From Gossypium raimondii (taxonomy: Eukaryota > Streptophyta > Magnoliopsida > Malvales > Malvaceae), in assembly GCF_025698545.1 (NCBI RefSeq), contig NC_068570.1, positions 51,169,924-51,233,923 of the forward strand: a DNA stretch of 64,000 bases, written 5' to 3'. This document shows positions 1,836-43,020 of this stretch, piece by piece (position 1 is the stretch's first letter; the number at the start of each line of letters is the position of its first letter). The notes beneath the pieces were generated by a model. That model saw only the letters and a list, made by a program, of their open reading frames with translations, made no database searches and was not told where the DNA came from. The position numbers and the translations under genes are program-made.

Positions 1836-2350
1836 TTAGACAAATTGACCGCTATTCAACATCAACTTATAGGATTTTAAATTCTTCTTGAGTTGTGTAA
1901 GTGTTAGATTCTTGTTCCCAAGGTTATATGTGACATTTAATCTTGTAAAATCCTTGCATAAGCTTTTGAACACCATCGCTATCTGCGTGTTTTGGTCCAA
2001 ATTGACCTCATTATCTATAGCCTCGGCAAAGTATCCCATAAGAGTAATCATATGGTATTTGACTAGAGTGTCAGGCTTTTGTTCGACATTCATCAAACTA
2101 GTTATAGTCGATTATCAAGCCAAGGCTGCTTGGCCTCTAAACATGTCCTCTTGTTTTTCTAAAATCGCTTTGGTAGTCTTTCAACTCTCTAGTTGCTTAT
2201 AAAGGGTGTTGGTCACACTTGCCAGCATATAGCAACAAGCTATCCAATTAGACTCCTCTCAATATTTTCTAGCTTTAGATTGAGTGGCCGAAAGACATTT
2301 ATTATGAAATTTTTTTTTGAGTTTCTCATAGCTTAGGACAATCATGAGGT
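1836..2350 (-). pseudogene. copia gag region (fossil)
   Basis: The minus strand at 1836-2096 encodes a gag-like segment with MITLMGYFAEAIDNEVNLDQ and LTLTQLKKNLKSYKLMLNSG, patterns of the UBN2-type gag of plant copia elements. A lysine-rich, zinc-knuckle-like tract follows at about 1640-1800. The region is interrupted and forms the upstream part of the element at 1-5790. Confidence 0.7.
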
Positions 2351-12100: not shown

Positions 12101-12764
12101 GATTACTTCAAGATTCCCGGAGTCTTCAATCTTGGAAGCATTCCTACTTGGCCCCCTTCAGGAAATAATGCCTACTTTCAGACCTCTGTCATGGCAGCCA
12201 ACTTCCGAGAATATGTTGAGATTGTATTTCAAAATTGGGAGGACACTGTGCAGTCATGGCATATTGATGGCTATTCCTTCTTTGTTGTAGGGTAAGGTTT
12301 TCAATACTAATGCTCTAGGTTCAATTTTCTATGTAAGGATCCGATTCACGTGTTTAAAATGTTGGTTGATCAGGATGAATGGAGGTCAATGGACACCTGC
12401 TAGTCGATCAAGCTACAATTTGAGAGACACGGTAGCCCGCTGCACCACTCAGGTATTGCTGTTATTCCGTCAATGCGCATGAGATGTGATCAATTATAGA
12501 GATTGTAGGAGCACCAGTTCTAAGTCTAGATTTTTTTTCGAGCAAATGCAGGTGTATCCCAGGTCATGGACTGCAATCTACATGGCTTTAGACAACGTGG
12601 GAATGTGGAATATACGGTCCGAGAACTGGGCCAGGCAATATTTAGGCCAGCAGTTTTATCTCAGGGTTTACTCCCCTGCAAATTCATGGAGAGATGAATT
12701 ACCAATCCCGAAGAACGCCCTTCTCTGTGGCCGGGCTAGAGGTCGCCATACAAGGCCTTTCTGA
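9188..12764 (+). CDS. SKS: SKU5-similar (SKS) multicopper-oxidase-like secreted protein
   Basis: Eight exons: 9188-9325, 9431-9540, 10816-11086, 11199-11301, 11490-11835, 11923-12291, 12374-12452 and 12552-12764. Together they give 1629 nt, or 542 residues, the usual length of the NTP303/SKS family. Residues 1-22 are a signal peptide, followed by three cupredoxin-type domains (about 27-145, 155-300 and 355-515). Copper sites of ascorbate oxidase are replaced: the first HWH position reads SWNG (82-85), the HPFHLHG position reads QSWHIDG (about 433), and the C-terminal HCH region reads ENWARQYLG (496-504). It is therefore unlikely to be an active oxidase. The C terminus (RARGRHTRPF) has no hydrophobic tail, so unlike SKU5 it is probably not GPI-anchored. 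NFT at 109 is a possible N-glycan site. Relatives act at the cell wall in pollen tubes and polar growth; that role is inferred here. Confidence 0.93.
9986..10231. mobile_element. 246-bp MITE in SKS intron 2, Mutator-type 9-bp target duplication
   Basis: ACTATCTTG occurs directly before (9977-9985) and directly after (10232-10240) the element, a perfect 9-bp duplication. The ends are imperfect inverted repeats: CAGGGGCAGAATCAG on the left, and on the right the inverse of AGGGGCGTAACTAAGGGG. The 9-bp duplication points to Mutator-like transposition. It sits inside the 1275-bp intron 2 and leaves the splice sites untouched. Confidence 0.8.
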
Positions 12765-14357
12765 ATTAGCTAACAAGAATAATAATGTCACGAGAGGGTG
12801 ACATGTCGCAAGCTTGGAAATATGAAGAGCAAAATTAGATTGTTAATTGCGGATTATTAGAGGTCAACTTGAGCTTTTTGAACCAATTTCTTTCTTGGCC
12901 TTGTGTTCCTAGAACAACTTTGTTGTTTTTATGATAACAGGATTGGCATTCAATTTATATATATTATGATAAATTAATCGTCCCTTATCGAATAATTGAA
13001 ACCTCTGCTTTAGACTTTGAGTCTCCTTGATTCAGACAAAGCTTACGACATCAAGAAACACTTGTCCATGATTCTGGCAAATTCCATCAAGAGGAATATT
13101 CCTCAATTTGAAACCGTCTCCTTTAAGTTGCACTTCTTCAAACCCCCAGTTAGAGGTGCCACAAACCGACAGAAGTAGTTTCAACCATTGTTGGCAATCG
13201 AGATTGCTCACCACACCCATAGCTTAACAATGTGAGCATCAATGGTGACGTTTTAGGCATTGGACGTGGCCACTGCATGAGAAACAAAAGCCAGCTGGGA
13301 AAAGAGAAAAAAGAAAGCTTGCGTAGCCACCCCCACACACGTTATCGGCTTATTGTTGATTGTTGAAATCATCACTCGATCGGTTAGTGTGAACATTGGC
13401 ATGTTCTTACATATATGAAACTGTCCATGTTTTAGTGTTTGAAGAAAGAAATCAACAAAAGCATATATTTTAGATATATTTTTTTGTAAAGTGATGATGG
13501 CCGGAATAAAGGGAACTATCCTGTTTTGAGGAATGAGGGAGGATTGAACATGTTTCTTGTAGGAACTGCAAATCAGCAAAATGCTTAGGTCATTACATGT
13601 CAATGGCTCCATGTTTTACTTTGGGCTATTTTTAACGTTTGTCTCTGTTTGTTTTGTAGTGAAAGTGTGAAACCTTTTTTTTTTTTTTTTTGTTATAACG
13701 TTTACCTTTGCTAATTTTTTTTCTTTGCAACTTTTAACTGTAAATTTTGCAGATACTCCTACAACAATTAATGAAAAATAGTCAAGATTATTTCTAAGAA
13801 TTTGGCTAATAAATGAAGTCAACAGCTGCATTTATGTTCTTCAACTGGAAATAAAAAGGAAAAAGAAAAATGAAGAAGAATGAATGTCAGGAAATACATG
13901 ACCCAAAAGAATAACTTCAATTTCAAAGTTCAAACCATGATATCATCAGGAACTTTGGGTAGAAAAGTTTTCATCTTTTCATCATTTTGGGTTCTTGTTT
14001 TTCACCCAATCAATCGATTTTCTTTTTTGGCCTGAATCAATCAATCAAGTTTCATGAACCAAATTGCGAAGTTTTTTTTTATTTTTTTTATTCTATTTTT
14101 TCTAAATTTTGATGAAGAAAGTGAGTCTGAAATTCCGTGTCCAAATTTCCTTTTTCTAATCGAACCTCCAATAGACTAAAACTGGCCTCTTAAAGAGTGT
14201 AAGAAAAGCTGCGGAAGAAGACAAAATCCATGCAACAGAGTCTTCACTAGTATTTATTCTCTTTTTTGTTTCAACTTTCACTAAAACACCCACCTCTCTT
14301 TTTTTCTCTCTCGTCTCTTTCTCGTTGTTTATATTGTCTGATAATCTTAGGCACAAT
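12765..14357. other. 3' region of SKS and upstream region of the G2-like gene
   Basis: 12765-13000 is the likely 3' untranslated region. 13020-13350 has coding-like composition in short frames on both strands that I cannot assign to a family. 13668-13691 is a T-run. 14290-14335 is a pyrimidine-rich leader just ahead of the next gene. No other gene is seen. Confidence 0.5.
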
Positions 14358-15780
14358 ATGAAGAGAGTTGATGTTGATAGTTGTTGGCTTAAAGGGTGTT
14401 GTTCTTCATCTTCTTCCCTCGACGACAGCGGTGGAATCAGCGTTTATTCACCGTCACCATCGATGATGAGAGTTATGAGGCGATGCCACCATAAGGACGA
14501 TAATCTGCAGCTGCCTGAAATAAGCTTGAAATCGCCAATCGTAAGGCCTTATGTTAGATCAAAAATGCCTCGTTTAAGATGGACACCTGATCTTCACCAA
14601 TGCTTTGTGCATGCAGTTGAACGCTTAGGTGGAGAAGACAGTAAGCTACCTTGTAATATTTTATTAACCCTTTTTCCAACACCTTTCAGTTTTTCATTAT
14701 GGTTTTCAACTATATAGGGGCTACCCCAAAGATGGTTTTACAGATAATGGATGTGAAAGGACTAACAATCTCCCATGTTAAGAGCCATCTCCAGGTTTTG
14801 ATCAAATACTACAAATATCTATATTGTTTGAAAAGAATTCTGGGTTTGTATTTTTCAATTTTTGGTTTGCCATGTATGAACAGATGTATAGGAGCACCAA
14901 GCATGAACAGATGATACAAGGTATACATGAGAAAACTAATATGTTACTAGTGCATGCTCTTTAATTTACTTCTATCCAACTTAAAGTGCATGGAATATAA
15001 AACTTTTCTAATCCCAGTTGCCAATATCTTGAATTATTATGAAATATGTGTTTGTATGGTTATGTAAGTTACAGAAGCAGCTACTGCATCAAGGAGAAAC
15101 GAGAAGGTATCAGAACTGATGAACTGCCCACAAAATCAACAGTTTAAGGATCAAGTGAGACCCTATAACCTAGGCCTCGGAATTGAAGGGATGCCTTCAT
15201 TTACCATCTTTCGGCAGCCACAATGGTATATATATCTATATGTATATCTACATCTATATCTATATCCAGTGTTGCTATATTTGCACTTAATTCTTAGAAG
15301 CCAAAAAAAAAGGGTGTCTTTGAATCTTCCCTCTGAAAATGTTTATATTGAGACCTTCCTCCATATATGCAGGAATGGAAACAAAGTGAGTAACCAGTTA
15401 TCATACAGGGAATTAACAAATAAAGGATCCGAGCAAAGATCAAGTACTTCATATATAATCTTCAAGGATTTACTCAAAAGTTGCACCATCCCAGTAATGA
15501 TCTCTCTCTCTTTCTCTTTCCTTCCTTTTGTTCATATATAGATTGATCTAATTGAAGGGTTTCGGTCCTACAGGAGAATCGTGAAAAGCTAAACGTGGGA
15601 CAACATGGTGGTGCAGATTGGAAATGCAATCATCAAAGATTGGTTCACTTAGGGGATCATAGTCAAGCATCTGATAGTTCAATTCTTCGGTCGCTTAACT
15701 CAAAACTTTCCCAGAAAATGTCGAGGCGTGGCAAAGCTGAGGGCCTCAATGATGTCTCTTTAGAACTCACTCTTGCTTGA
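14358..15780 (+). CDS. GARP/G2-like Myb-type transcription factor with EAR motif
   Basis: Six exons: 14358-14640, 14718-14794, 14884-14920, 15075-15225, 15373-15493 and 15574-15780, totalling 876 nt or 291 residues. The single Myb-like GARP domain spans about 68-127: KMPRLRWTPDLHQCFVHAVE, then RATPKMVLQIMDVKGLTISH and VKSHLQMYRS. The SHLQMYR ending is the G2-like form of the SHAQKYF motif. The C terminus, VSLELTLA, contains an LxLxL EAR repression motif (286-290). A Ser-rich acidic N terminus (16-35) precedes the domain, and the coiled coil of MYB-CC/PHR proteins is not evident. The family resembles Arabidopsis At2g40260/At1g14600-type proteins; this is from memory. A nuclear DNA-binding repressor is the inference. 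The start is the first ATG in frame (14358); the same frame upstream opens with a TTG only. Confidence 0.9.
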
Positions 15781-18657: not shown

Positions 18658-19098
18658 CTACGTACATTGTGTGAACCTTAACTGTTGCCAGATCTCTTTT
18701 GTGTGCAAACACTCTTGAAAAACATGTTCAATTGTTTCCACACCATTGTGACAGCGGTGACAGTTCGCAGAGTTCATCAACCTCCTGTAGCATAGGTTTG
18801 CATAAGTAGGCACATAGTTGTTCATAATCCTTAACTGTTGCCAGATCTCTTTTGTGTGCAAACACTCTTGAAAAACATGTTCAACTGTTTCCACACCATT
18901 GTAACAGCGGTGACAGTTCGCAGAGTTCATCAACCTCCTGTAGCATAGGTTTGCATAAGTAGGCACATAGTTGTTCATAATCCTCCATGTTGTAATTTTT
19001 ATTTCGGAGGGTAGATCAATATTCCAGAGCTTTTTGTATAAGCTAGAGTAGGGGTAGAAATTCCCATCAGTAGAAATTCCATAATGGTTATGTATCAA
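18658..19098 (-). pseudogene. LINE ORF2 zf-RVT region with tandem 51-residue duplication
   Basis: The zinc-binding segment NCHRCYNGVETVEHVFQECL is present twice in tandem, each in a 153-bp unit (18676-18828 and 18829-18981) that keeps the frame. By eye the two units differ at only two positions, so the duplication is far younger than the decay of the element. A single copy of this domain is normal for the family. Confidence 0.88.
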
Positions 19099-19771
19099 CC
19101 ATTTGTACGCACTTCGAACCGTATATTCCCCCGTAGCTTCACCACTCCAAGCGCGAACATCCTTCTATGGAACAAGGGGTAAATAAATGGCTAAAATCTG
19201 TTGAGTATCATCAACGACAAAGGTAGAATTGATTAAATCCTCCTTCCAATTATTTGTTTGCTAGTCTATTAAATCTGCCACTCTTTGAATAGAAAAATCT
19301 AGTATGGGATTTTGAATTCATTGATTTTAATTTCCAGGTATCCATACATCCGCCCTCAATACTTGAAACAATTCTCCAACACATTCTAGCCTCCAAAATG
19401 TCCTTGGTGGCCCATATGCTTCTCCAGGTATAAGAAGGTAGTTGTCTTAAACTTGACTCCATAAAGCTAGTATTTGGAAAATATTTACTTTTAGAGTACG
19501 TGCTAATAATGAATCTGGATAACTAAGCAACCTCCATCATTGTTTAGCAAGTAGGGCTGAATTAAATTGAGATAAAGAGCAAAAACCTAGGCCACCATAA
19601 CTTTTCAATTCACATAATCGGTTCCATGTACACCAATGAATACCAAGCTTATTACTACTTCAACGCCACCGTAGCTTGGAGGACCGATTTTATAAATACC
19701 TATTTGCCTCATTGTGAGAGATATCGAATACTCGATCCAAAAATTTTTGCTCACATCCCGTCCTTAAGACT

Positions 19772-20811
19772 CTATATAGCTTTTCTTTTACCACCACTGA
19801 CAATGTTTGGTAGGCCTAGGTACTTCTCTAGTACTGTAGAAATCCGTATGTTCATCATTTGGGAAACCACTTCCTTACTCGCGTTTGTAGTGTTTGAGCT
19901 AAAAAACGCTGTGGATTTCTCAAACTTGATGCACTGCCCAGAAATGTCTTCATACTCCCTTAGGATTCCTTTCAGAGCATTAGCACCATTATACGTAGCT
20001 CTCCCAAAGAGTAAGTAATCATCTGCAAACATTAAGTGAGTAATCTGTGGCCTCCTTTTATAAACATTCGCACCCCTTATCAATCTTTCCTGATTTACAA
20101 GTTTCATTAGCATCAAAAGCTCTTCTCCGCAAAATAAGAACAAATACGGATTCAAAGGGTCACCTTGTCTCAATCCCCTTTCCAGTTTAAAAATTCCACT
20201 AGCCTGCCCATTTAGAATAACAGAATAGGATATTAAGTTAATACATCTTATTATGAAATTCACCCAAGAATCTGCAAAACCCATTGATCTCATCATTAGC
20301 TCAATGAAAAGCCATTCTACTCGATCGTAGGCTTTACTCATATCAAGCTTCAAAGACATCTGCCATTTCTTTCCAATTCTCTTATTTTTAAACGCATGAA
20401 ATACCTCATAGGCTAGAAGAACATTATCCGTAATGAGGCGCCTTGGTACAAAGGCACTTTGTGCCTCATCTATACACAATTCCAACATCTTTTGAAAACA
20501 GTTTACTACTATTTTTGCAATAATCTTGTAAAGCATTGTACAAAGGCTAATTGGCCTAAAATCTTTCAATTTGGTAGGGTTGCAATCTTCGGAATCAAAA
20601 CAGTATTCATCTTACTAATGAATTCCATCTATGATCCTTTATTGAAAATATCCAAGTAAAAATTGTTGACATCTCCCCCAATAATGTGCCAGTGTTTCTG
20701 ATAAAAGAGCACAGGGAAACCATCCTCCCCCGAAGCCTTTGTTGGGCCTATAAACTTAAGAGCCTCTTGCATCTCCTCCACTTTGAACTCTGCTATCAAC
20801 ACGTTATTCAT
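19772..20811 (-). pseudogene. LINE ORF2 reverse transcriptase
   Basis: Residues KASGEDGFPVLFYQKHW (20811-20629 segment) and then DFRPISLCTMLYKIIAKIVV, AQSAFVPRRLITDNVLLAYE and GLRQGDPLNPYLFLFCGEEL mark the palm and finger blocks. The catalytic FADDYLLFGRA motif is intact within 19772-20569. One frame change separates the two segments near 20600. The ORF continues toward lower coordinates through 19462-19250 with a thumb/connection region. Confidence 0.92.
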
Positions 20812-24610: not shown

Positions 24611-25623
24611 CTACACTGATTTAATGTTTAAAATGTTTAAAATAAAAAAGAAGTTTTATTTTTCAAGAAATCAATTAAAAATAAAAACACATAATGAAAA
24701 TAGTACTTACTATCATGTTAGCTTGAATGGAGAAGAGGGGTATAAGGTGGAGCAAAATGGGATACCTTTGTAGTTGATGTCAAGGGTTGGAAATGTACTT
24801 GTAGATCATGTATCTTACAAGTCTTCCATGCCCACATGGTCTATGTGTTATTTTTCATGGAAATGAGAGGATTAAAGACTATGTATTTAAGGCTTACAAT
24901 GAGTTATATAGTTATGCTCTCCTTACCATACCAAGTGTCAAGTTTTGGGTAGACATCAAAATGGGCCCTGTTAACCCACCAATTAAGAGAGAACTACTTG
25001 GTAGATCAAAGCTAAATAGGAGAAAAGAGGAAGGTGAAGGAAAGGGTGGTAGCAAGCTGTTGAAGAGGAATTAAGATGACATGCTCCTTATACGGCCTCT
25101 CAACACACAATGCTAGATCCTGCCCTACTAGAAAACAACATATAAGTAATACCCCACTTATGTTGCTTCTTAACACCAATTACTTGCTTAAATTCAATTA
25201 TGTTAACTATTCTTATGTTAACATCTTTTCCATGATATGAGCCAAAACTACAATAGTAAATTTTGAAGCTACTCAATCCACACACCATGAAGAATTTGAG
25301 GTATTTTATTTATAAGGTTGTTTTGTAATAGCAATATATTGTTTATATAACTAATATCTCACTTATTTTAATTTTAGGACTATGTAGCTCATTTACAAAC
25401 ATCTCAAGCCCTTGCCTCTCACAATTTAACACCCCCTATAATAAACATAAGGAAAAGGGCAACTACTAAGCCATCTAAACAAGCCACAACCACTCAACAC
25501 TCAGTTTCAACAACATAATCCTTACACAAATTTGTACCCCCTGTTGCAAACATAAGGAAGAAGGTAGCTACTAAGTCATCAAAACAAGCCACAACCTTTC
25601 AAAGTTCAGCCTCAATCTCAATA

Positions 25624-27758
25624 TGTTGGATTTGGTGCCCTAAGTTTAATATTTTCTAACATATTGGTTAATAAAATTATTCATGAATTACATTAATACT
25701 TTGTATTATTGTCCTCACATGGTTTTTTTTGTACACAAAGCAAAATAGAAGCAAATGTTGCTCATTGGTTGTCCAAATGTTTAACTAATACTAAGTTGTA
25801 TTATGTGGTTAGATTATAGTATAGAAAGACAACTTGCATTACTAGACGAACCTAAACATGTCCTTAGTTTAATTAAAAAGGAGAAAACCGATTGAAAGAC
25901 TAATATTTCGTCTATCAAGTCCAATTGGGGAGAGTCTTGTCTTGGGCATCGGAGCAGATGACTCCTAGAAGATAGAGACATAGATGTCACTGATTGGACT
26001 GACAGTACATCGGACAAGACTTAAGTAAAATAAATCTTGAATCTGTTTATGGATTTATTCACTTGTAAAATTTATAGTATGACATATCTAAATCTTGAGT
26101 GGATGACAGACTATGTATGCGTGACTCATATACACTTTGATGTAAGTAAAAGCATGAATTTAAATAGATACGGAACCAAAAGCTGGTGCGTTAGGTGTAT
26201 GAATTCTATAGTATGTAGCATCATTCTCAATAGTGAAATTCATAGCCCAAAACATGGGTAAATGATATCCTCTCATTGGCATTACATGGTTAATGAAAAG
26301 TAAACGTGGCCACGGGTCGTCCGTCTTTGTTAAGGATGACTTGATCACTATGTGATAGTGATTGACTTTTCATGAAAGAAGATGTAATGATTGCCATAAG
26401 ATAAATAGGATCCTATTGGGAGAACAAATATTATTTCAAAGAGATCAAGGATATCCTATAAGGGTAACACACTAATGACAATGTCATTGGACGAGCACTA
26501 AGTAGTTATTTTCGTAATGGTATATCATTAGGGAGAGCTCAATCACGATGCTATAGTGGAATGACTTCGTGACTAAATGAGTTTATAATTAATAGGTAAA
26601 AAGTTGAAAATTAGTTATAAATCATTTGAGCCTCAACTACATATATCTAATCGGTTCCTCCGCTAACTTGTTGAAACCAGAAATGAATTGCATGTTTGAA
26701 TAGAAATGAATGAAATGAATAGAAAAAGAGAATGGGAAACATTCAGGAATGATTATGGTTATCTTCGAAATGGAGAAATAGAATCATTTGGAAATGAATG
26801 TAAGTTTCCACAAATGGAAATGAAAATGGAAATGGAAATGAAAATGAAAATGAAAATGGAAAATTGCAATCCTATATGGATTACTTAAAAATGATCGAAA
26901 GAATAAGTTTACGTTTTTGGGTTGTTTTGAAGCCTGGAAAGGAAAATAAACCATTCGTTCATAGTTAAAATGTTAAGTCATGAAATATTGAACATATTTT
27001 CTCGAAATTTTACCAGGGGCAAAATCGTTAAAATTTTGCTAGAGGTAAAATAGGGATAAGAAAATTGTTTTATATTTAAATATTAAAGTTATTTTGGGAA
27101 ATAGAAATTTTTAATTGGGTTGGATCATATTACAAAGTACTGGGTCAAAAATGCCTAAGAAGTACTTGTAATTAGACTCGATGTGAGAGAGGCCCAAAAC
27201 CCCTCATGTAACATGAAAGGGGAGACAACCCTAGTAGGAATACTAGGGTGTGTCATCTACCCCTTTTCTAATCTAAGTAGGAAGTTGTTTTTCTATTTGA
27301 AATAAACTTCTATAACTCTACAAGAGTTCTACATTCTTTTCATATAAATAGATGACACCGATAGAGCTATTTATACAATTTTGAGAGATTATTATTCTGC
27401 CCAAAAATAGAGAAAGTTTATTCTCAACTATTACATATATTATTCCAGTTAACAATTCTACCAATTTCTATTAAGAAGAGAGTTTTAGTTTTCACCCCAA
27501 AAGGAGAGAACTTTTTCTAGTTCTATGTTTCAATTCAATTGGTTTGAGCCCAAACTTGAATCAGATCGTGGTACGAGAATAGTGGAGAAGATCATTTGGT
27601 TGAAAGTCGAAAAATATCAAGGATCCGCTTATCTAAAAACACAGGTACGATTTTAGTCTAAGGTTTATTACTATAAATATCACAAACCGGGTCAGTTGTC
27701 AAAATTTTAAATTTTCGCTATGCAAGAAAATCGTTTTCAATTCAGGATTTTTCTAACA
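25624..27758 (+). repeat. solo LTR, copia family (same family as 3941-5790), 2.1 kb
   Basis: It starts TGTTGGATTTGGTGCCC and ends TTTCTAACA, canonical TG...CA ends. The 5 bases before (CAATA, 25619-25623) and after (27759-27763) are identical, so this is a clean insertion later reduced to one LTR by recombination. 26700-26865 holds a GAAATG-rich microsatellite-like tract. It inserted into the tail of a MULE transposase remnant. Confidence 0.88.
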
Positions 27759-27763
27759 CAATA

Positions 27764-30700
27764 TGTAATAGCCCGATTTTAGGCTTAGTCGGAACAGTGG
27801 TTTCGGGACCACAAATCCGACGAAAAAAAAATGTAATGGCTTGAATTTTCAGAGGTGTCGGAACGGTGATTCGAGATCACTAAATTCGACAAATGGGTAG
27901 AAAATATTATTAATTTAGTAAGTATAAGTTAAATATGAAGTTAGGAAAATTTTTGAAATAGTGAATAGTGCACTAGAAATAAATATTAAAATAATTAGAA
28001 TCGAAATGAGGTATCAAGACCTCGGGATTTTAAATCGAGCCATAAATATTTTTATAAATATTTATGGAGTGTTAAAAGTTAGTATTAAAGTTTCGTTAAG
28101 AAATTTTAAAGTTAGATAATTAATTGAACAAAAGGACTAAATTGTAACAAATGCAAAATTTTGGGAAATGATTAAATAGCTTAAATGATAAAAGGAAGAG
28201 GGCTTAAAAGACAAATAGACCCAAGGTCTATTTAATGGACAACAGAGGCATGAAATCAAGAAGAAAGTAAGGAGAATTAAGGGCAAAATTGGAAAATTTC
28301 AAAATTTGCTTAATAAAGTTAGGACCCAAGTGGAATTATCTAGATTTCTCTTCATTTTCTGAATTCTCATCACTAAAACACCATGGAAGGGCTTCTTCAA
28401 GTTGGTTCTTCATATTTTTATTACAAGTAAGTTCAATTCTTGACTATTTCTTGAAATTTTTGTATTTTATGACTTTTACAACTAGGCCCACTTGTTAAAT
28501 TCATTAGTTTTGATTTTATGAAAGAAGTTGAAAGTTGATATGAATATGTCTTTGAAGTATATGATGATTTATCATGAAATTAGAGCTTTAAATTGTTCAT
28601 ATCTTGATTTTATTGAAAGAATTGAATAGAAAGTGAATGTTTGGGACCTAATAGTAAAAGAGTTTGAAGATAGAGTTATATGTGGAAATTCAATTTCAAT
28701 AGTTGTGTAACAACTTATAATGTCTAGTAAAGTACTAATTGAGAAAATTAGATTAATTGAGGGTTAATTGAGAAAGGACCGAATTGTATAAATCTGTGAA
28801 ATTTGGGGCAAAATGGAAATCAACATTTTGCCTTTGAAGCGCTTTTGGACAGCTGACGATAGTGTAACTTTGAAAAATCACCAAAATTGTAGAGATTGAA
28901 TTAGAGGATGAATAAAATATGAAACTAAAGCTTATTGAGTCTAGTTTCTTATAAAAGAAATGATGTGAGCAATGGAATTGTAAATCATGAGATATAATAG
29001 ATTTTGTGAGACAAGGTCGAGAATGAATTCGGGTTCCCTATTCGACTTTGGAAAATCATTAAAATTGTAAAAAATGATTATGAGTTATAATTTATATGGT
29101 TAGAATCCTTAATGAGTCTATTTTAGAAGAAACAAGCTAAAACATCATCCGAATTACGTACAATGAGATAATTAATTTTAGTGAAGAGTGGTCGGGGCGT
29201 CGACAAATGTAAACAGGGAAAATTTAAAGAATAAAGCAGTACTATTTGGATGAACCAAAATTATGAAAATTTTATGGTATGAAGATATGTGAGTCTAGTT
29301 TCAGGAAAATTAACGGATCTTAATTTGGAGCTCAGTAGCTCAGGATAAAAATAATTTAGTGACTCGACTCGGATAAATGACTTTGAATATACATGTTAGT
29401 GAATATTGAAATTATGGTTAATGTTGTTTAAGTGTGTTATACACATTAAGGATGTGGAATGGAGAGGAGGAGGAGGAAAATTGGGAAATATATGAATGAT
29501 TAGTGTATAAATGGTCATATGTTTGATTATAACTAATAAACGATGAAATATGAATGATGCTTATTTTTGTGCATTATTGGTCATGGTTTAAGCTCATGTG
29601 TGAAAATAAAGTTTCATAGTATGTGTGTATGGTATATTAGGTATATGATTTGGCATGAAATAATACCATGAATGGTTTATGAATTAACACATGTTGGTAA
29701 GCCGATATATGAATAAATGATCAAATTGAGCGAACGCTTGGATTTGAGTACTTCCGATCAAGTGACAAAGTGATAAGTGGTAGCTTTAGCTACACTTATC
29801 TGATCAAGTGACAAGTGGAAAGTGATAAGTAATAGCTTCGGCTATACTTATCTGATCAAGTGACAAAGTGATAAGTGATAGCTTCGGCTATACTTATCTG
29901 ATCAAGTGACAAAGTGATAAGTGATAGCTTCAGCTACACTTATCTGATCAAGTGACAAGTGGAAAGTGGAAAGTGATAAGTGATAGCTTGGCTACACTTA
30001 TCCGATCAAGTGACAAGTGAAAGTGATAAGTGATAGCTTGGCTATACTTATCTGATCAAGAGACAAAGTGATAAGTAATAGCTTTAGCTACACTTATCTG
30101 ATCAAGAGACAAAGTGATAAGTGGCTACACTTATCTGATCAAGAAACAAAGTGATAAGTGGCTACACTTATCTGATCAAGAAACAAAGTGATAAGTGGCT
30201 ACACTTATCGATCAAGAAACAAAGTGATAAGTGGCTACACTTATCTGATCAGAAACAAAGTGATAGGTGGCTACACTTATTTGATCAGGGACAAGTGATA
30301 AGTGATCATACGTAAGACCATAGTTATACTATGGCAAAGTGAAAGTGAAGTACTCAATTTTCCGTGACTGTTCCCTAATTTGATTAAGGATGGTAAGTGA
30401 CAAATGGGCCCGAAAGAATTAAAGTAAATGGATAAGTGGTAGTGTATTTATATCGGAGACGATGTTGTTATTCAAACTAAAGTGATATTTTCATTGCTAA
30501 ATTGAGAATTTCATAAATGTGTTATTGAATGGTATAATCAATAAACATTGAGTTAAATGGTAAATACGTATTAGTTTTGAATTTGATGTCATTGAATTGT
30601 ACGTGAATTAAATGGAAATTGCTAGTGATATGATTTAAATTATGAGCATGAGAAATTGCGAATTGAATGAAATGGAAATGAAGCATTAAATTGCATGAGT

Positions 30701-30904
30701 ATGTATCGGTCTCATGAGCCCTAATTATTATGATTATAATATTTTGAGGATATATTGTGAAAAGTTATAGAAACATGTTAATTATTTTGAAAGTTTTAAT
30801 TTTGATGAAATTTTATAACTCGGTTAAATACGTTTACAAGTATATGTGTTTTGGTAATGCCTCGTACCCTATTCCGGTGTTGGATACGGTTAAGGGGTGT
30901 TACA
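27764..30904 (+). repeat. solo LTR of a second family (probably Ty3/gypsy), 3.1 kb
   Basis: It starts TGTAATAGCCCGATTTTAGG and ends GGTTAAGGGGTGTTACA, so the ends are near-perfect inverses (TGTAAxAxCCC). CAATA flanks both sides (27759-27763 and 30905-30909). No internal element region is attached. It contains a hairpin-forming tandem array at 29756-30300. The TGTAACACCCC-type end is a common LTR end in cotton gypsy elements; the family assignment is from memory. Confidence 0.82.
29756..30300 (+). repeat. tandem hairpin array inside the 3.1-kb solo LTR
   Basis: About 13 units beginning GATCAAG, 46-58 bp long in the first half and 35-38 bp in the second. Each contains GATAAGTG and CACTTATC as facing arms; in the short form, GATAAGTGGCTACACTTATC, the arms pair over 8 bp around a 4-base loop. 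Unit length falls stepwise as the GATAGCTTCGGCTA part is lost. Confidence 0.85.
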
Positions 30905-31060
30905 CAATAAGCATAAGGAAAAATATTGTTGCATCTAGAAAGGGGAGAGCAACAATCGACCCAAGAGGAAAGACCATAATACAAGGATTGGGCATTTACA
31001 CCAATGAAAAAACAAGACTCCAAATTTTGAATGTAAGTTGATATATCTATAAGTTTCATT

Positions 31061-31499
31061 CCTTAATCACATATGTACATCCGCACAATTAACTTATCGT
31101 AATTTGATATGTCAAATTAGGCTTTCTCAAGTACTTAATAACCTTGTTTTCAAGTAGTTTACGAGTCTTTTTAATATTTTTTATTGATTGTTAGATTTTA
31201 GTGTTAATGATAGCTTTTCTTATATTTTACCTTTTTTGAGACCTAAATGGCAAAACTATGTCATTAGGAGTCCAATGATTGATTTGAGCATGTGTAGGGA
31301 GACAACAATGACCAAACCTTGAGGAACATTGCATCTAACGTGGGTGTCACGACACTGATGCTAGGATATCACGACATTGAGCCTTCATCACCTTAAGGGT
31401 GCAAGACTTCAACGAGACACCAACTTGGAGCAGTCTACTGAGGATGCCGCAACACTATGGGTGTTGTCTCGTGACATCAAGCTCGAGGTCATGACTTTA
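31061..31499. other. unassigned repeat-like stretch
   Basis: No coding region. The words GTGTCACGACACTGATG, ATCACGACATTGAG and GTCTCGTGACATCAAG recur, a pattern that looks like part of a further dispersed LTR-type repeat, but I cannot set its limits. Confidence 0.4.
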
Positions 31500-33596
31500 T
31501 GTTAGAAAAAATTCAGTTTGAAAACAGTTTTTTACACATCTAAAAATTAAAATTTTGAAAATCCACCCGATTTTTTTATATTTATAGTAATAAACCCTTA
31601 GTCAAATTTGCACCTATATTTTTGAATAGACGGATCATTGTCGTTCTCGGCTTTCAACCAAATGACCTTCTCCATTATCCTCGTACCACGAACTACTTTC
31701 AGTGTGGCCCTGAACTATTCAAATCAAACATAGAATCAGAAACAATTTTCTTTGTTTAAGTGTGAAAATGAATAATCTCTTATCAAATAGAAATCGACAA
31801 AAAATGTTATTTTGGAAATTAGATTTAATAGTTGAGAATAAATTCTCTCTATTTTTGAGAAGAGTAACAATATTTGAAAGTTGTGTTTTTAACCCTACCG
31901 GTGCCATGAATTTATAGGGAGAAGAAGTAGAACCCTTGTTGAATTCTAGAAGTTTATTTCAACTAGAAAAACGAACTCTTAGTCTAACAAGAAGTATAGA
32001 TGGCAACAACCCAGTTAATAATAATAGGGTTTGTCATCCCCCTTATCAACATGAAGGGCTTTTGCACCTATCCCATATCGGGTCTAATTACAAGTACTTC
32101 CTAGAATTTTAACCCAATACTTTATTATTCGATCCAACCCAATTTTTTTTATTTCCCAAAATAAATATCTCAATATTTTCCCATTGAATAATCTTCTAAA
32201 CCCAATTCTAATTCCATTAAAATCACGATAATTTTATCATAAAAGAATCTATGAGAAATTATATTTAATATTTCTTCATTCAACGGTTCACTATGACCAA
32301 ATTAGTTCCATTTTTTAACTTCATTTAATTCAAAAAACATAAATTTATTTCCAAGTCATTTTCATTTTGGAGAAAACCACATTCATTTCTAAATGATTCC
32401 ATATCTCTATTTTTATTTTCGTTTTGGAGAAAACCATAATCATTTTCAAATGTTTCTCATTTCTCCATTTTCACCATTTCTATCCATTTATGTTTATTTG
32501 ATTCAACATGCAATTCATTTCTGATTTCAACGAGCTAGCAGAGGGATCAATTAGACATATGCAATTAGAGCTTAAATGATTTATAATTAAGTTTCAGCTT
32601 TTCGCCTATTAATTATAAACTCATTTAGTCACGTAGTCATTCCACTATAGTACGTGACTAAGCTTTCCTTAATGGCATATCATTACAAAACCAACTCGAT
32701 CAATGCTCGTCCAATGACCTTGTCATAAGTTTGTTACCCTCATAGGATATCATTAATCTTTTTGGAATAATATTCATTCTCCCAATATGATCTTATTTTA
32801 TCTCATAGTAACCATTACATCTTCCTTCATGAAAAGTCAATTACTATCAAATGATAATCAAGTCATTTATCTTAAAGACGAACTACCTGTGGCTACATTT
32901 ACTTTTCATCAACCATGTAATGCCAATGAGAGGGATATCATTTACCCATGTCTCGGGCTATGATTTTCATTGTTATGAATGTCACTACATACTACAGAAT
33001 TCGTATACCCAACGCACTAGCTTTCAGTTTCTTATCTATTCGAACACAGGCTTTTACTTACATCAAAGTATACGAATCACACATACATAGTCTATCATCC
33101 ACTCAAGATTTAGTTATGCCACACTATGAATGTCACAAGTGAATAAATCCATAAACAAATTCTGGATATATTCTTCTTGGGTTTATTCTGATGTATTGTT
33201 AGTCCATTCAGTCACATCCATGTCTTTATCTTCTCGGAGTCATTCGCTTTGATTCCCAAGACAAAGCATCTCTCCAATTGGACTTGATAGATGACATATT
33301 AGTCTTTCAATCGGTTTGTTCATTTCCGATTAGATTAAGGACATGTTTAGGTTTGTCTACTAATTCAAATTTGTCTTTTCGTATTACAATCTGACCATGT
33401 AATGCTGCTTAGTATTAGTTTAAACATTAGACAACTAGTGAAAAATATTTGCTTCTATTTTGCTTTGCATACATGAGGACAATTATACAAAGTATATTAA
33501 TGTAATGCACGGATTTGTTTTATTAACCAATTTATTCGAAAAAGTTATCACGTGTACATAGATGAAATTACTACACTTAGGGCACCAAATCCAACA
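31500..33596 (-). repeat. solo LTR, same copia family, inverted orientation
   Basis: On the plus strand it runs from TGTTAGAAAAA to GGGCACCAAATCCAACA, the exact inverse of the ends of 25624-27758, at 2.1 kb. Flanking 5-mers are CTTTA and CTCCA, a partial match only, so the target duplication has decayed or the ends were rearranged. It lies 3.7 kb from the direct-orientation copy. Confidence 0.82.
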
Positions 33597-33643
33597 CTCC
33601 AAGCCCTTAAGGTCACAATTCCACTACTAATGGTTGCAAAAGT

Positions 33644-33690
33644 GACATGTGAAAGTGAAAGTGAATGTGAATGTGTATGTGTATGTGTAT
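33644..33690 (+). repeat. microsatellite-like GTGAAA/GTGTAT tract
   Basis: Runs of GTGAAA, GTGAAT and GTGTAT hexamers lie just outside the 5' LTR of the gypsy element. Confidence 0.8.
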
Positions 33691-33719
33691 GTGTAAATAA
33701 AGATAAAAGTGAACATGTG

Positions 33720-36207
33720 TTTACAAGCCAAATTTTTAGCCCAAAACCCAATACAACCCAATTAACCCTACCAATACACCAAACCAATTAAACTAACCCA
33801 TTAACCTTTAGCCCAAAACAGTTAAACCCAAAACCCATTTACACCCAAACCCGAAGCCTAATAGCATGGCCCAATTTCCCTAAAAAATATCTGCCTAGAA
33901 ACCCTAGGTGCCGCCCCTTTGATCCTAGCCTACTACCTCCAGCCGCCATTACCCATGCCACCGCCGCACCTACTACCACCTGCTTCAAACGCCTGCGAAG
34001 AAGAAAGAAGTGACAATCATAGCAATGGAGAATGATGACACAATCGGCTATAAAAAGCCAACAATATGTAATTTTAAGGGGGTTTCCAACAACTTTTGTA
34101 ACACAAAAAAAGAAACAGACATTAACAAAAAAGAAATAAAAACAAGAAAATTTGAGAGGTGATTTTCTCTCATTTCTATTTAGTTTTTTTACTCTATTTT
34201 CGTTTTTCTTTCTCTTCTTTTGTATGATTTTTTTTACGTAATAAAAATAAGAGAAAGGGACCTTACCTGCGCCGTGTCGGGGAGGAGAAGACGAGCGGCC
34301 TTCCCTGGTTCTTCAGGCTTCGGGCTCTTTTTTTTCGAGGTTTGGCCTTGGATTTGTGCCTAAGAGAAGCCCGGCTTCAAAAAAGGATCAAAAAGATCCA
34401 ATTTTGAGTCGCCGGCAACCGCATGCGGCGATGCTAAGGCGGAGGTACGCCAGAGGCCTAGATCGGCCGATGACCGGCGCCAAGGCCCGAGAGAACGAGG
34501 GAGAGAGAGAGCTCCTATCTGTTTTTTTTTTGAAAAATGGTTTTAAAACTATTTTTTAGTGTTTTTTTAGTATTTATATTAATTTTAAAACGGCGCCGTT
34601 TTGGATAAGGGGATCCGCGCGTCGACCCGACCCAACTCAGGCGATCCGCGTGTTTTCTATTAAGGGGTTATTTGCGCCTCAGGCCCTTCCGCATTTTCGG
34701 TCTGATTCAATTTGATCCTATTTCGCTATTTCCTTTTATTTTTAATGTAGCCCCACAACGTTTTTTTCTTCCAATCTGGCCCACTGCTGAGTTGCATTTT
34801 GGAGGGCTTCGGTTATTTACCCATTTGGTCCCCCTGTTTCGGCGTGTGTCGCAATCTGGTCCTCTTTTTTATTTATTTCGAATTCGCCCAGTATTTTTGT
34901 TTTTACTTTGATTTAGTCCTTTTTAGTAATTTATCATTTTGTTCATTATTTTAATGTTACCATCGATATTATTATTCATTGTTATTGGTTTTATTTCCCA
35001 TTTATTTAGTCATTACAATCTTATTAATGCCTTAACTAGTTTTTAGTGATTTATTATTATTTTAGCTTTATTCTCATAATATATGTACATATACCTATGT
35101 ATATTTTATGTATATGTGTACACATATATGTTTCTATATTTTATTTATATATACCTATATACAAGTCTATACTTCATTTTCATAAATACATATATATACA
35201 CACTTACATTTTTTAATGTATAATAATTCAAATATGTAAACATACACATGTTTTCATATTCTCATTATTTTATTTATATATATGTGTTTATATATTTTTA
35301 TATTTGCATCATGTTGTTAATTTTGTTCATTTATTTGCATGTTTATTATTATTTGTTTTCTTTATTTAGTTCCTAAGTATTTGTTACCTTGCAGTATGAT
35401 TGTTTTTATTATTTATTGTTTTGCTTGTATAATTTTATTTACATTGTCATCATTATTATTATTTTACATCCATTTTACTCGAATTTATTAAGAACAAAAA
35501 ATTTCAAAATAAAAGCAACACTCGGTATTTGGGATCTTCGAGAGAATTGAGCCCTAACGTATTGGGTTCCGATTTTCTTTGCTGAATCTAAATAATCGAG
35601 GTTACTTTTTTTAAAAAAATGAAAATAAAAATAAATAAAAGCTCATTATCAAGAATTCAATATGTCGTGTCCTAACGCATTGGATGTGACACGTTGATTT
35701 TTCGAGATGAGGATTTTCTTAAAAACAACCAAGGCAATGTTCAATGTTTGGAATGTTGAAAAATTGTGCCCTAACGTATTGGGTTGCGATTTCCTCATTT
35801 GACTTGGACAATTGAATATCGTTTTTTAATTTTTGTTGTAGGAGTTTTTTAATATAAGCAACCTATTTTATACAAGTCATTTTAAGACAAAGGATCGTAT
35901 TTTAAATTTCTTTAAAATTTTTAGTTTTCGACATTAAGACATTGACTAATCAACTAGATACCAATTTTTGGGCGTTACGAGGGTGCTAATCCTTCCTCGT
36001 ACGTAACCGACTCCTGAGCCCATTTTTCTAGATTTCGTGGACCAAAATCGTTGTTTTAATAAAATCAAAATCGTTTATTACAAACAACCACTTTTCGAGG
36101 TGATCCAATCACACCTCATTAAAAAGGATTGGTGGCGACTCCCATTTTCGTTTCATTTGTCAAAACCCAAGTCGACCCCGTTTTCAATCAAAAAAATGGT
36201 GTCAACA
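33720..36207 (+). repeat. 5' LTR of the Tat/Ogre-type element
   Basis: It aligns along its whole length with 48594-51080, ending in the shared GGTGTCAACA. The largest differences cluster in 34270-34470, against 49145-49350. It contains an AACGGCGCCGTT palindrome (34589-34600) and a long AT-rich tract with ATATGTATATA words (35060-35300). Confidence 0.9.
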
Positions 36208-36832: not shown

Positions 36833-38943
36833 TGCTAGATAGAAAGCTAATCATGGAAAGTGAATTTTTTGATAAAGTGAAAGATAATGCGGTTGTCCGA
36901 ATATGGTCAGAAAAAACGCAACTCGAGAAAGGAGACAGCTTGACGGAAGGGTACACGTCAGAGTTATTGGACTTCACTTATATCAATGTAACTCAGAATA
37001 ATTTCCAGGAGTTGAAAGAAATATAGGCCCAGTGGGATGATGAAGTTAAACAATTGTTTTACTCTAATTATGGTAACTTGCCTTATTTGCTTGATATTAA
37101 AGTGGACGAATATTTGTTTCGAGCTCTAGCCCAATTTTGGAATCTCGCTTATAGCTGCTTTACTTTTGGGGAGATAGACTTGGTGCCTACCATAGAGGAA
37201 TATACAGCCTTACTGCGTTGCCCAAGGTTTCAGGCAGATAAAGTCTATTCTAAAGCCGTCAATATCCCTACTTTTGTGAAGAAGCTAGTGAACATGTTGG
37301 GAATGAGTGAGCAATGGGTCTCACCGCGGGTCAAACAGAAATGGGAAAACAAATGTATTCCCTAGAGAAGTCTGCGTGATTTGATTTTAGCTCACCCTGA
37401 TACGAAGAAAAAAGTCAATGTTTTTGCTTTGAGCATTTATGGGCTGATGATTTTCCCTCGAGCGTTGGGGTATGTAGACGAGGCAATTACTGATTTATTT
37501 GATCGACTGGACAAGAGGGTCACACCTGTTCCAGCAATTTTGGTCGAGACATTTAGATCTTTAAGTGCGTGCCGAAGCGTGGGGGAGGGAAGATTCATTG
37601 GATGTGCACAGCTCTTGTTAGTATGGTTTCACAGTCACTTCTGGAAAGTGGATAAAGTCTCTTACCGAGTATTTTCCAAGAATTATTCTCCATTGAAAGA
37701 ATTAGCAGCCATGCCGAGACGTGACAACATTACCGTGGAAAGATGGATAGCGATTCTTCAAAATATCAAAGATGAAGATGTTGAATGGAAAGCTCCTTGG
37801 ATGGTGCCCAATGAGATCTTGTATCGATGTGGGAATTTCGACTGGGTCCCTTTACTTGGGATTTGGGGAGTCATTGGCTATCGCCATTGATGGTCTTCAA
37901 ACAAGATGGGTCAAGAGCAGTTCGTGCTCGCCACCCAAGGACTAGCTCAGTGCGAGTTTTTGTATAAAGATGATGGTTACAAGAAGAAGATTCGAGAAAT
38001 GACTAATGCTTGGAGGTAAACTCATCGGATGAAACGATTTACTGTAGGAGCGATGACGACCCCCGAGTATCATGGATGGAGAAGTAAGAGGATTAATGAT
38101 AACATCCCCGGGCCAAGAAAAGATTGCGTTCGATCCATAGAGGAGTATTTGTAAGTAGTTCCGTCAGAATTAGAGATCATTAAACAGGACTTTGAAAAAA
38201 GAAGTTTGGAATTGGAAAAGAAGATAGAGCAGCTAGAAGAGGAAAAGATGCATTTGGGACTAAATGTCGATATCCACAAGTTGGAAGCTGAAAAGTTGAG
38301 GAAAGGGAAGAACAAGGCTGAAGAGGATTTAGATAGTCTAAAAATAGATTATAAGAAGTTGCATTTGTCACTGAGAACTGCGGGTTTAGGTAAAATATCA
38401 GAGCAATGGCGACAGGAGATCAAGGAAGAAAAGGCCAAAGCTGTTCAGTGGGAAAAGAAATTTCAAGATGCCCGAGCTCGAGAAAGTGCTTTGGAGGAAA
38501 ATTTGTTAGAATGTCGAAATAAAGAAGCAATATTTAAAGCCCAGATAGCTGAGTTGGAAAGGTCGCTTCATTTGTGCCGTAGTCGTAATTCTATGATCGA
38601 GCTGAGAGCAAGTTTGAGCAAGATTGAAGAATTGAAGGAAAAGATAGAAGAACTTGAAGACGCATTGTGAAATTCTAAATTACGAGTAGAACTTCTTAAA
38701 AGACGTAATGAACAGTACCAAGAGCAGCTCCATCATCTTCAAAGTCAGATTAGAGATAGAGATTGCGTTATGGGCGAAGCTGTGACTCAAGTGCGGGAAG
38801 TGGCTGACCATCTGCAAACCTTAGCGGTTCAGGCTGATATACTAAGTTTGAAATATGAGTCGGAATCAAGTCGGGGTCGAGAGTTAGCTTGGGTCTTTAA
38901 GAGGGTTAAGGCTTTGAGCATAAAGGCAAAGCCGTATATGTAA
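36833..38943 (+). pseudogene. extra ORF1 upstream of gag (plant-mobile-domain-like, then coiled coil), fossil
   Basis: A coding region in the position of Ogre ORF1. The first two thirds contain FRALAQFWNLAYSCFTFGEI and LVPTIEEYTALLRCPRF, which resemble the plant mobile domain (PMD/DUF1985-type) shared by some transposons and host MAIL1-like proteins. The last third (about 38170-38930) is rich in Lys/Glu heptads (LEKKIEQLEEEK, KIEELKEKIEELEDAL) and should form a long coiled coil. Its function in the family is unknown. The region is interrupted. Confidence 0.65.
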
Positions 38944-39100
38944 TCCACTTTATGTAAAGAAATTTATTTTCTAGTCAAGTTTTCCTAATGAAATTGAATT
39001 AAAATCAATGCATTTTCTTTGCATCCATCTGCATTACATTTTTATTACATGCATTAAAGTTTCAAAAAATAATAATAAGAGCTCTAATTAATTAAAAATT

Positions 39101-41493
39101 ATGACAGTTACCCTAGAAATCAACAAAAATCTGCCAACTAGATATCATTACGGTACTCGCCGCAGAACCAAAGAAATGGATCAAAGATTAGAGAGATTAG
39201 AGCAATTGCAAGAACAGACGCAAGCTCAGATGCAAGAAAAACTAGATAAAATGCAGCAAGATATGGAAGAATCCCAAAGAGAATTATTGAATCAATTAAA
39301 GCAGTTAATGGCTGCGGGGCACGATACGGGGAAGAGCCCCGTGGTAAATTCTGGGGATGATCACGAAGACCCTGCCTACCCTCCAGGTTTCGCCCCAACT
39401 AATATCCAGACGCAACCAGGGGTGTACCCACAGAGGGTACCTGTCACTATTAGATCCCAATACCAAGTCGGTGCCCCAGCATCGATGAACTTCCCAACAG
39501 GCCCGGGTTCTAACCCCAGGGATAATCCTACTAATCCCGTGGTTCCTGGTCTCGACGATGTAGCAGAAATAGAGAAGGCAAGAATAGACTTGCCGAAACA
39601 ATTAGAAGACCGATGTAGATGGCTAGAGGAGAAGTTTAAAGCCATGGAAAATACTAATTACCACCGAGGAATGGACGTCAAAGATTTTAGCTTGGTATCC
39701 GATTTGGTCCTCCCTCCCAAATTTAAAATGCCGGAGTTTGAGAAGTATAACGGGACAAGTTGTCCCGAAGCTCATATCACTATGTTTTACCGAAGGATGA
39801 CTGGGTATATTAACAATGATCAACTGCTGATTCACTGCTTCCAGGACAGTTTGGTCGGGTCAGCGGCTAGATGGTACAATCAATTGAGTCGGGCCAACAT
39901 CTACTCGTGGAAAGATTTGGCGCAAGCCTTTATAAAGCAATACAGACATGTGATGGATATAGCACCTGACCAAATTGTATTGCAAAACATGGAAAAGAAA
40001 CCTAATAAGAGCTTCCGACAGTATGCTCAGAGATGGAGGGAAGTGGCAGCGCAAGTTCAACCACCACTTTTAGAGAAAGAGATAACCATGCTCTTTATCA
40101 ATACTTTGAAAGCTCCATTTCTCAATCACGTGTTGGGCAGTGCCACTAAAAGCTTTTCAGACATAGTTATATCTGGAGAAATGATAGAGAACGCCATAAG
40201 ATGTGGCAAGATAGAAGCAAGAGAAAGCACTAAAAGGTCAGCACCAAGAAAGAAGGAACACGAGATAAACAACATAAGCACGTTTAACAAGGACTATTCT
40301 AAACCAATCATGGTGGGAAAATCGAGAGCAGTAATTGCTAATCATCAAGGTTCTTCGAAACATGAATCCAATCCAAGGCCAAATGTGGAAAGACTTCAAT
40401 TTACACCCATTCCAGTAACGTATAGGGAATTGTACCAGAACTTATTCGATGCACATGTGGTATCTCTATTTTACCTAAAACTCATGCAACCTCCATACCC
40501 TAAGTGTTATGACACAAATGCCCAATGCGAATACTACGCGGGGATGAAGGGCACTCGATTGAGAACTGCACTGCATTCAAGAAGTTAGTTGAAAAACTTA
40601 TCAATATGAGGATCGTAAAGATTGGTGACTCATCAGGACCAAATGTAGCAGATAATCCGCTGCCCAATCATGATGATAAAAGGGTGAACGAGATAATTGA
40701 GAATAGAGGAAGAAGAGTCAAAGTCAACGTGGCAGAGATAAAGACCCCTCTTGAATGGGTTTGGAAACAAATGGTGAAAATAGGTCTCATCAAGCAAGAT
40801 TTGATAGAAATGCCTGAAAGAATAAAGAAATTTTGTGAGTTCTATGCAGAAGAAGACCACGACATCCAGAAATGCACCGAGTTCAGAACGGTGGTGCAAA
40901 ACTTAATGGATAATAAAGAAATGGAGTTCTATGAGGAGATCAAGGGATTAGAAAAGGGAGAAGTTTATGCTTCAGAGGAAGGACCTGCGGAGAAGGCCCA
41001 AATGGCTAATCACCCAGTGGTGATTATTTCAAAGCCAGTAAGCAAAGAATCTGGAATACAAATAGCGCCAAAGGTCATAATCCAAAAACCTGTATCCTTT
41101 CCTTACAAGGATAGCAAAAAGGTTCCTTGGAATTACGACTGCAATGTGACAATTCCAGGAAAAGAGAGCTTGGTAAATGCTTCAGAAGAAAATGAAGGAT
41201 TCTATACACGAAGTGGAAAGCGCTATGATCTGGCAAGTGCAAAAGTGGAATCTGGAAAAGGAAAAGCCTTAGTAGTTGAGTTGGAAAAAGCAAAAACAGA
41301 CAAAGTTGAATCGCATGTCAATCGGCCGGTAACTGAAAATGAGGCTAGAGAATTTCTAAAATTCTTGAAACATAATGAGTATAGCGTGGTAGAACAATTA
41401 CATAAGCAACCGGCTCGTATCTCGGTGCTTGAGTTGCTTCTAAGTTCGGAGGTGCATCGTAATGCGTTGATAAAGGTACTAAATGAAACTTAA
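39101..41493 (+). pseudogene. gag region of the Tat/Ogre-type element (fossil)
   Basis: A coiled-coil start (RLERLEQLQEQTQAQMQEKL) is followed by a Pro-rich linker. The retrotransposon gag core with YNGTSCPEAHITMFYRRM and LAQAFIKQYRHVMDIAPDQI comes next. The downstream part carries CEYYAGMKGTRLR- and CEFYAEEDHDIQKC-like degenerate zinc-knuckle segments, the double-knuckle layout seen in Tat gag. Broken. Confidence 0.85.
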
Positions 41494-41511
41494 GTCGCTA
41501 AAGATATCTCA

Positions 41512-41934
41512 GTGAACAAGTTGGACCGTTTGGTTAACAACATAAGTGCCGACAATTTCATCTTTTTTAATGATGATGAAATACCACCAGGGGGAAGAGG
41601 AGCCACTAAAGCCCTACATATTACCGCTCACTGCGGGAAATATATGTTGTCAGGTGTGCTAATTGACAATGGATCGGCCTTGAATATCTTACCCCTATCC
41701 ACCTTAAGCAGGTTACCGGTGGATAGTTCTCATATGAAATCATGCCAGAACATCGTAAGAGCATTCGATGGCACCGAAAGAAAGGTGATGGGAAGAATAG
41801 AAGTACCTCTCTTGATTGGCCCAAATACATACGAAGTGGATTTCTTAGTGATGGATATCAAGCCCTCGTATAATTGCTTGCTTGGGAGACCATGGATTCA
41901 TTCAGCAGGGGTGGTGCCTTCATCATTGCACTAG
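41512..41934 (+). pseudogene. aspartic protease region (fossil)
   Basis: The retropepsin signature LIDNGSALNILPLSTLSRL (an Asn-Gly-Ser in place of the usual Asp-x-Gly-Ser form) is followed by the conserved flap and tail, SYNCLLGRPWIHSAGVVPSS. Confidence 0.88.
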
Positions 41935-42590
41935 AAGTTAAAATTAGTGACAGAAGGCCGGTTAGTTACGGTTAACGCTGAGGAAGACATCATTGCATCG
42001 GTAACCAGTGACGCACCATATTTGGGAGTAGATGATGAGGCGGTTGAATGTTCTTTTCGATCCTTAGAGTTCGTAAATGCAACTTTTGTCACTGAGGGAA
42101 AGAAAATCCCAATGCCCAGTATATCTAGAGCCACAAGGATGGGACTACAAATGACAGTTGGGAAATGAGCTATGCCTGGAAAAGGACTGGGAAGATGCCT
42201 TCAAGGAAGGATAGAGGCACCAGTTGTGAAAGACAAACAAGACCGCTTTGGTTTAGGATTTAAACCAAATGCCAAGCAGAAAAGGAAAGAGTTAGAAAAA
42301 AGATAAGAGAGGAGGAAGGCACGTTTGAACGGAAAAGAAGTTGATTGGGAACGTATGGCTTTCCCTCACATATCCAGGACATTCGTATCGGGAGGAACCA
42401 TATATTCTGGACTGAGGACTCCAAGAAAGAAGATCACAGAGGAAATGTTAGGAAACTTGAACATCAACGCCATATTTGAAGAAGAATCTGAAGAAGGAAG
42501 TACATCAGGCATCTATCCCGTTGAACTTGGGAGTGTTTTAAACAATTGGACTGCAGAAGAAATGCCTGAAGTTTTTAGAGCTTTTCCAGA

Positions 42591-42858
42591 GTAATATTCA
42601 AAACATATTAATTGTTCTAAGCCTAGAGAGAATGAAAACTTTTTGTGAACTGAAATGGGCTTATATTTGGACATTGTGATTTCAATGAAATATATCTTCG
42701 CATTTTGAGTATATATTCTTTTAAAATTCTTTTCATTCTTTCAAACGAATAGTCATCTTGAATGCTTTTATTTCGAATCATTCTTTTATTTATGACCACA
42801 CTAAATAAGAATCCTTAAATTCATACATTCCCTTTACATTCTTTGATACTTATAACAG
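42591..42858 (+). other. probable intron of the Tat/Ogre-type transcript
   Basis: An AT-rich, non-coding segment of 268 bp lies between the protease side and the reverse-transcriptase side, beginning GTAATATTC and ending CTTATAACAG. Ogre elements are known to splice an intron between protease and reverse transcriptase, and this lies in that place. Inference by position and motif. Confidence 0.5.
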
Positions 42859-43020
42859 GTCCCAAGATATCAATGACATGAGTGACTCTACTATGGACTT
42901 AGAAAATCTTTTTGAACGAGATATGTATTTAGAGGAATCTCAAGATTTTGAAGATAACATAGATTGCAACCTATCTCCGGACTTGTTAAGGATGGTAGAG
43001 CATGAAGAGAAACAAATCCT

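Follow-up and report, generated by a model that had tools for sequence, protein, structure and literature searches.

How do two LTRs of different families come to stand side by side at a single five-base target? The question is raised by a pair of LTRs in the genome of Gossypium raimondii, which we analysed within a window of 64,000 nucleotides (C6:51169924–51233923), with genome-wide searches covering 750.8 Mb in 281 contigs.

Two solo LTRs and three copies of CAATA

An earlier sequence-only reading had described a run of CAATA, one LTR, CAATA, a second LTR and CAATA. Its coordinates proved right, and the three copies of CAATA lie flush with both LTRs (Table 1), which have the same orientation and abut across the central copy. 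LTR1 begins with TGTTGGATTTGGTGCCC and ends with TTTCTAACA; LTR2 begins with TGTAATAGCCC and ends with GGGGTGTTACA. A comparison of LTR1 with LTR2 gave no real similarity, in agreement with their description as unrelated families, and the junction letters bear out that each LTR has a perfect 5-bp duplication of which the central copy is common to both. An Rfam search of positions 25000–34000 at gathering thresholds gave no hits to RNA families. A second family-1 LTR, about 75% identical to LTR1, lies in the opposite orientation at 31500–33596 (minus strand), some 590 bp beyond the pair, and its flanking 5-mers, CTTTA and CTCCA, differ.

Table 1. The LTR pair and the interrupted gene tail, in window positions.
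Feature	Coordinates	Strand	Basis
Left half of interrupted gene tail; decayed, with a 105-bp direct repeat and one internal stop	25378..25623	+	
CAATA, left target-site duplication copy	25619..25623	.	Junction reading
LTR1, solo LTR of family 1	25624..27758	+	Family alignments, junction reading
CAATA, central duplication copy, common to LTR1 and LTR2	27759..27763	.	Junction reading
LTR2, solo LTR of family 2	27764..30904	+	Family alignments, junction reading
CAATA, right duplication copy	30905..30909	.	Junction reading
Right half of interrupted gene tail; continues the left-half frame	30910..31038	+	

Whether either LTR in fact ends elsewhere was a question set beforehand, and copies of both families agree that neither does. 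For family 2, the best 40 of 11062 candidates were scored. Seventeen of these, the one in the window included, match bases 1–3141 of LTR2 in one piece, and the other 16, all full-length, are 92–97% identical to it. The head TGTAATAGCCC was present in all 12 of the 17 one-piece copies that were fetched for reading of their ends, as was the tail GGTGTTACA or a one-base variant context (GTGTTACA tail); outside these ends stand differing flanks or sequence resembling a PBS or PPT. A PBS, TTTAGTGGTATC(A)GAGC, follows the tail in four of the 12 and a PPT, a tract of the GGGGAGAGT type, precedes the head in another four, giving eight copies with one or the other. Six of these eight form three pairs, in each of which one partner has the PBS and the other the PPT and the outer flanks match (L016/L013, ATCTC; L012/L014, TATTA; L015/L017, GAAGA), and two, L011 and L019, were read without their partners. 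Together with the perfect 5-bp duplications around three other solo copies of LTR2 (L010, ATTTT; L018, TGCCT; L020, GTACC), this places 5-bp target duplications of family 2 at six sites besides the window. The remaining 23 of the 40 scored candidates give two-piece matches to LTR2. For 21 of these, the first piece ends (query 2316–2470) within a tandem array of units mostly 36–52 bp long, located at about 29742–30281 on the plus strand, so the copy number of the array seems to vary among family-2 copies. From its terminal motifs, we take family 2 to be putatively gypsy-like.

The ends of LTR1 are reproduced too. All seven copies fetched from outside the window carry its head word, with 1–4 mismatches in 21, and its tail word, with 0–2 mismatches in 14. 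Their BLAST alignments begin at LTR1 base 24–29 because LTR1 in the window, judged by eye, appears to be missing some 25 bases immediately interior to the head. Identity to LTR1 is 81–83% for the seven copies compared and 78–85% for family-1 matches of at least 1 kb in the genome. The listing of target duplications of both families elsewhere, which the sequence-only reading had proposed, yielded 5-bp duplications for family 1 too: L005 has a perfect one (ATATC) and L004 agrees at four of five positions, while the flanks of the other five copies (L002, L003, L006, L007 and L008) agree at 0–3 of 5. Polypurine-like sequence precedes the head in L002 and L007, which may be halves of longer family-1 elements; a PBS after the tail was seen in none of the eight family-1 copies read, and so no full-length element of this family was seen. 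Ends of the TGTTGG...CCAACA type suggest that family 1 is presumably copia-like.

No internal region borders either LTR. Neither a PBS after the tail nor a PPT before the head was found beside LTR1, where the gene tail and LTR2 adjoin; the PBS result concerns a family in which none of the eight copies read shows one. The same search beside LTR2 found neither, and there LTR1 and the gene tail adjoin across CAATA. Both are therefore solo LTRs, and their earlier description as such holds. Solo LTRs are a known product of recombination between LTRs, an established route (PMC7251063). Each member of the pair resembles the solo LTRs of plants that retain target-site duplications, with a single LTR, a perfect 5-bp duplication and no internal region; the pair differs from the usual case in that two of them abut and have one duplication copy in common.

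Adjacency and a common orientation might also be expected of one compound repeat, or of a chimeric insertion that carried both LTRs with the central CAATA inside it. We regard such an origin as very improbable, since each family is found alone elsewhere with its ends at these same bases, and since a chimera would have CAATA at its centre only by chance, about 1 time in 1000. Nor was a second LTR1–CAATA–LTR2 junction found: the spacer sequence in the window is unique among 93 exact matches to GGGCTATTACA-N{0,30}-TGTTRR, a search that takes exact matches and would miss diverged copies of the junction.

The target site and its surroundings

When the flanks of the pair are joined at a single CAATA, one reading frame runs across the junction, and nothing therefore seems to have been lost at the site. 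This agrees with the earlier statement that the flanking gene is continuous outside the pair. There is one stop further upstream in the joined frame, and the gene tail is therefore one that decayed before the insertion or has done so since. The same reading had labelled this gene a MULE, a name that we could not confirm, as Pfam gave no family for the three pieces tried; a putative MULE identity does fit the look of the tail.

Two further observations bear on the empty site. The 20 bases over the joined junction match the first unit of the 105-bp repeat at 16 positions, a likeness reached in 5 of 2000 shuffles and one that fades over longer stretches (24 of 50); this is weaker support for the structure of the empty site than a paralogue would be. 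No paralogous empty site was found with either of two queries: 600 bases of joined flank returned, among 40 of 462 candidates scored, only the two halves in the window and 38 matches confined to the last 125 bases of the query (476–600), and a 52-residue peptide across the junction returned only the right half in the window (21 of 21 candidates scored).

Other parts of the window hold what look like further elements and pieces of genes. On the minus strand, 18661–20611 resembles a non-LTR (LINE-like) retrotransposon, with Pfam matches to RVT_1 in the ORF at 19775–20611 and to zf-RVT in that at 18661–19164. On the plus strand, 37366–43797 contains a retrotransposon gag match (ORF 39092–40585) and a reverse transcriptase match (ORF 43006–43797); upstream of the gag ORF, the ORF at 37366–37887 matches DUF7745 and, below threshold, a plant mobile domain, possibly a captured domain. 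Pieces resembling ordinary genes lie at 11873–12292 and 14175–14714 (plus strand), where Pfam gave a multicopper oxidase domain and, under its cut-off, a Myb-like DNA-binding match.

Spacers between LTR ends across the genome

The shared target is one coincidence and not two. With intact 5-bp duplications on both LTRs and a spacer of 5 bp between them, all three copies must be identical; because the identical target follows from the length of the spacer, only that length needs explaining. If insertion is random, all spacers near the edge of an LTR are equally likely, and we therefore tabulated the spacers between LTR-end words throughout the genome. A chance estimate of N squared over G gives about 13 flush pairs per 100,000 insertions in 750 Mb, the number of insertions N being assumed.

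The sequence-only reading had raised the possibility that integration favours a fresh duplication. Such a preference, or one for the border of an LTR already in place, would have guided the second element to the same 5 bp. The cleanest counts bearing on this come from two sets that together hold 53 places: set A (GGTGTTACA-N{0,30}-TGTAACACC; 74 rows representing 37 places, no control matches) and set B (GCTATTACA-N{0,30}-TGTAACAC; 16 places, including the 7 of another search, and 4 control matches). Spacer 5 occurs in 4 of the 53 against 1.7 expected (P 0.09, uncorrected), with a 95% range of 0.6- to 6-fold. Spacer 12 also occurs in 4, and chance gives a maximum of at least 5 at one spacer or another with P 0.63. 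The commonest spacer between these family-2-type ends is 2 (5 of 53), for which junction products of two LTRs are a possible cause.

Three further sets were tallied. In set C (GGTGTTACA-N{0,30}-TGTTGGA), which is noisier (18 control matches), spacer 5 occurs in 7 of the 100 matches listed of 109, against a mean of 3.2 (P about 0.04, uncorrected), spacer 1 in 7 and spacer 7 in 10, three of the last with the same spacer sequence. Set D, the pattern already used for the junction (5 control matches), has spacer 5 in 5 of 93, the pair in the window included, with a mean of 3.0 and, without that pair, P 0.35; we think that its control understates the number of chance pairs by a wide margin, since TGTTRR is a short word and reversing the pattern removes the abundant LTR word. 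Set E (GGTGTTACA-N{0,14}-TGTAAYA; 15 control matches) comprises 93 distinct rows, 7 reverse-strand duplicates having been dropped from the 100 of 226 matches listed. Spacer 5 occurs in 4 of these rows against a mean of 6.2; that mean is raised by 22 rows with spacer 10, many of which repeat a single sequence. There is partial overlap among the sets, two of the four spacer-5 pairs of set E being also in set B. A family-1 pattern, TTCCAACA-N-TGTTGGA, gave 156 matches against 73 for its reversed control and was left untallied as too noisy.

We also read the surroundings of 15 other spacer-5 pairs (L021 and L058–L071). The five in set D are the pair in the window, two that were fetched, and those at L028 and L044, which were left unread. 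By eye, both sides resemble LTR ends in L021, L058 and L059; the others are plausible or due to chance. At L021, the right LTR has GTAGG at both ends and the left LTR has AAAAT at its presumed far end, so that this pair is not a shared triple. A search for GTAGG followed by TGTAACACC gave 22 matches (25 in the control), none other near this place. Searches reaching about 2.9 kb to either side of L058 and L059 gave no far end that convinced us. No second clean shared triple was thus found among the three pairs whose far ends were sought.

Taken across the sets, spacer 5 lies above the mean in three of four (A and B together, C, and D) and below it in set E. These low and in part noisy counts show no convincing genome-wide peak at spacer 5, so that the suggested preference for a fresh duplication was not borne out. 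We consider this preference improbable as the cause of the pair. The weak excesses in the cleanest sets and in set C, and the three other pairs that look LTR-like on both sides, are what it would predict; in those same sets, however, spacers 2 and 7 outnumber spacer 5, set E is without an excess, and L021, the sole other pair with far ends found, is no shared triple. Published work likewise speaks against it: across 12 plant genomes and 1491 nested pairs, LTRs are reported not to be commonly targeted (PMC6911290), a statement made for nested pairs and not for flush neighbours as such. A modest preference at spacer 5, up to about 6-fold, is compatible with our counts, and it seems doubtful that the integrases of plant LTR retrotransposons have even a mild one (perhaps 2- to 3-fold) for the duplication at an existing LTR edge, which would show as more 5-bp spacers than expected between neighbouring LTRs.

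A likely history of the pair

The insertion order, the timing and the ages of solo LTRs cannot be read from the LTRs themselves, and divergence within each family offers an indirect guide. The 81–83% identity of family-1 copies against 92–97% in family 2 suggests that family 1 was active much earlier, and LTR2, on this apparent order, probably landed in the right-hand duplication of LTR1. The same figures, with 78–85% for family-1 matches of at least 1 kb, suggest very different periods of activity and so weigh against simultaneous integration, in which a second intasome would have used the first one's staggered gap before it closed. The product of such an event would look identical in sequence; we nevertheless give it hardly any probability.

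We are confident that the pair arose instead by two independent integrations, probably of family 1 and then of family 2, each element being later reduced to a solo LTR. A family-1 element would have integrated into the tail of a transposase-like gene, duplicating CAATA. Later, a family-2 element would have integrated with its cut spanning precisely one of these copies, the right-hand one being the simplest choice, and ordinary staggered cleavage would have produced the third; the 5-bp spacer would have arisen by chance. Recombination between its LTRs would then have cost each element its interior and one LTR, with the duplications left intact. Of the earlier proposal that two elements hit the site at different times, the two insertions thus stand as the most likely account, and their order draws on the divergence of the families.

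The arrangement resembles nested insertions of LTR retrotransposons, in which a later element lies in or beside an earlier one and 5-bp duplications are reported to dominate (PMC6911290). It differs from them in that the later element appears to have struck the duplication instead of the earlier element's body, so that the two stand side by side.

We know of no report of a rule by which an LTR edge or its duplication attracts later insertions, and the titles returned by a thin literature search name none. Were an excess of 5-bp spacers to be proved across the genome, it would mean that later integration is drawn to LTR edges or duplications already in place. The pair described here is most likely ordinary in kind, a coincidence of independent insertions, and it neatly illustrates how two solo LTRs can have one duplication copy in common. 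It also carries a caution: a target duplication shared between abutting LTRs requires nothing beyond a 5-bp spacer.
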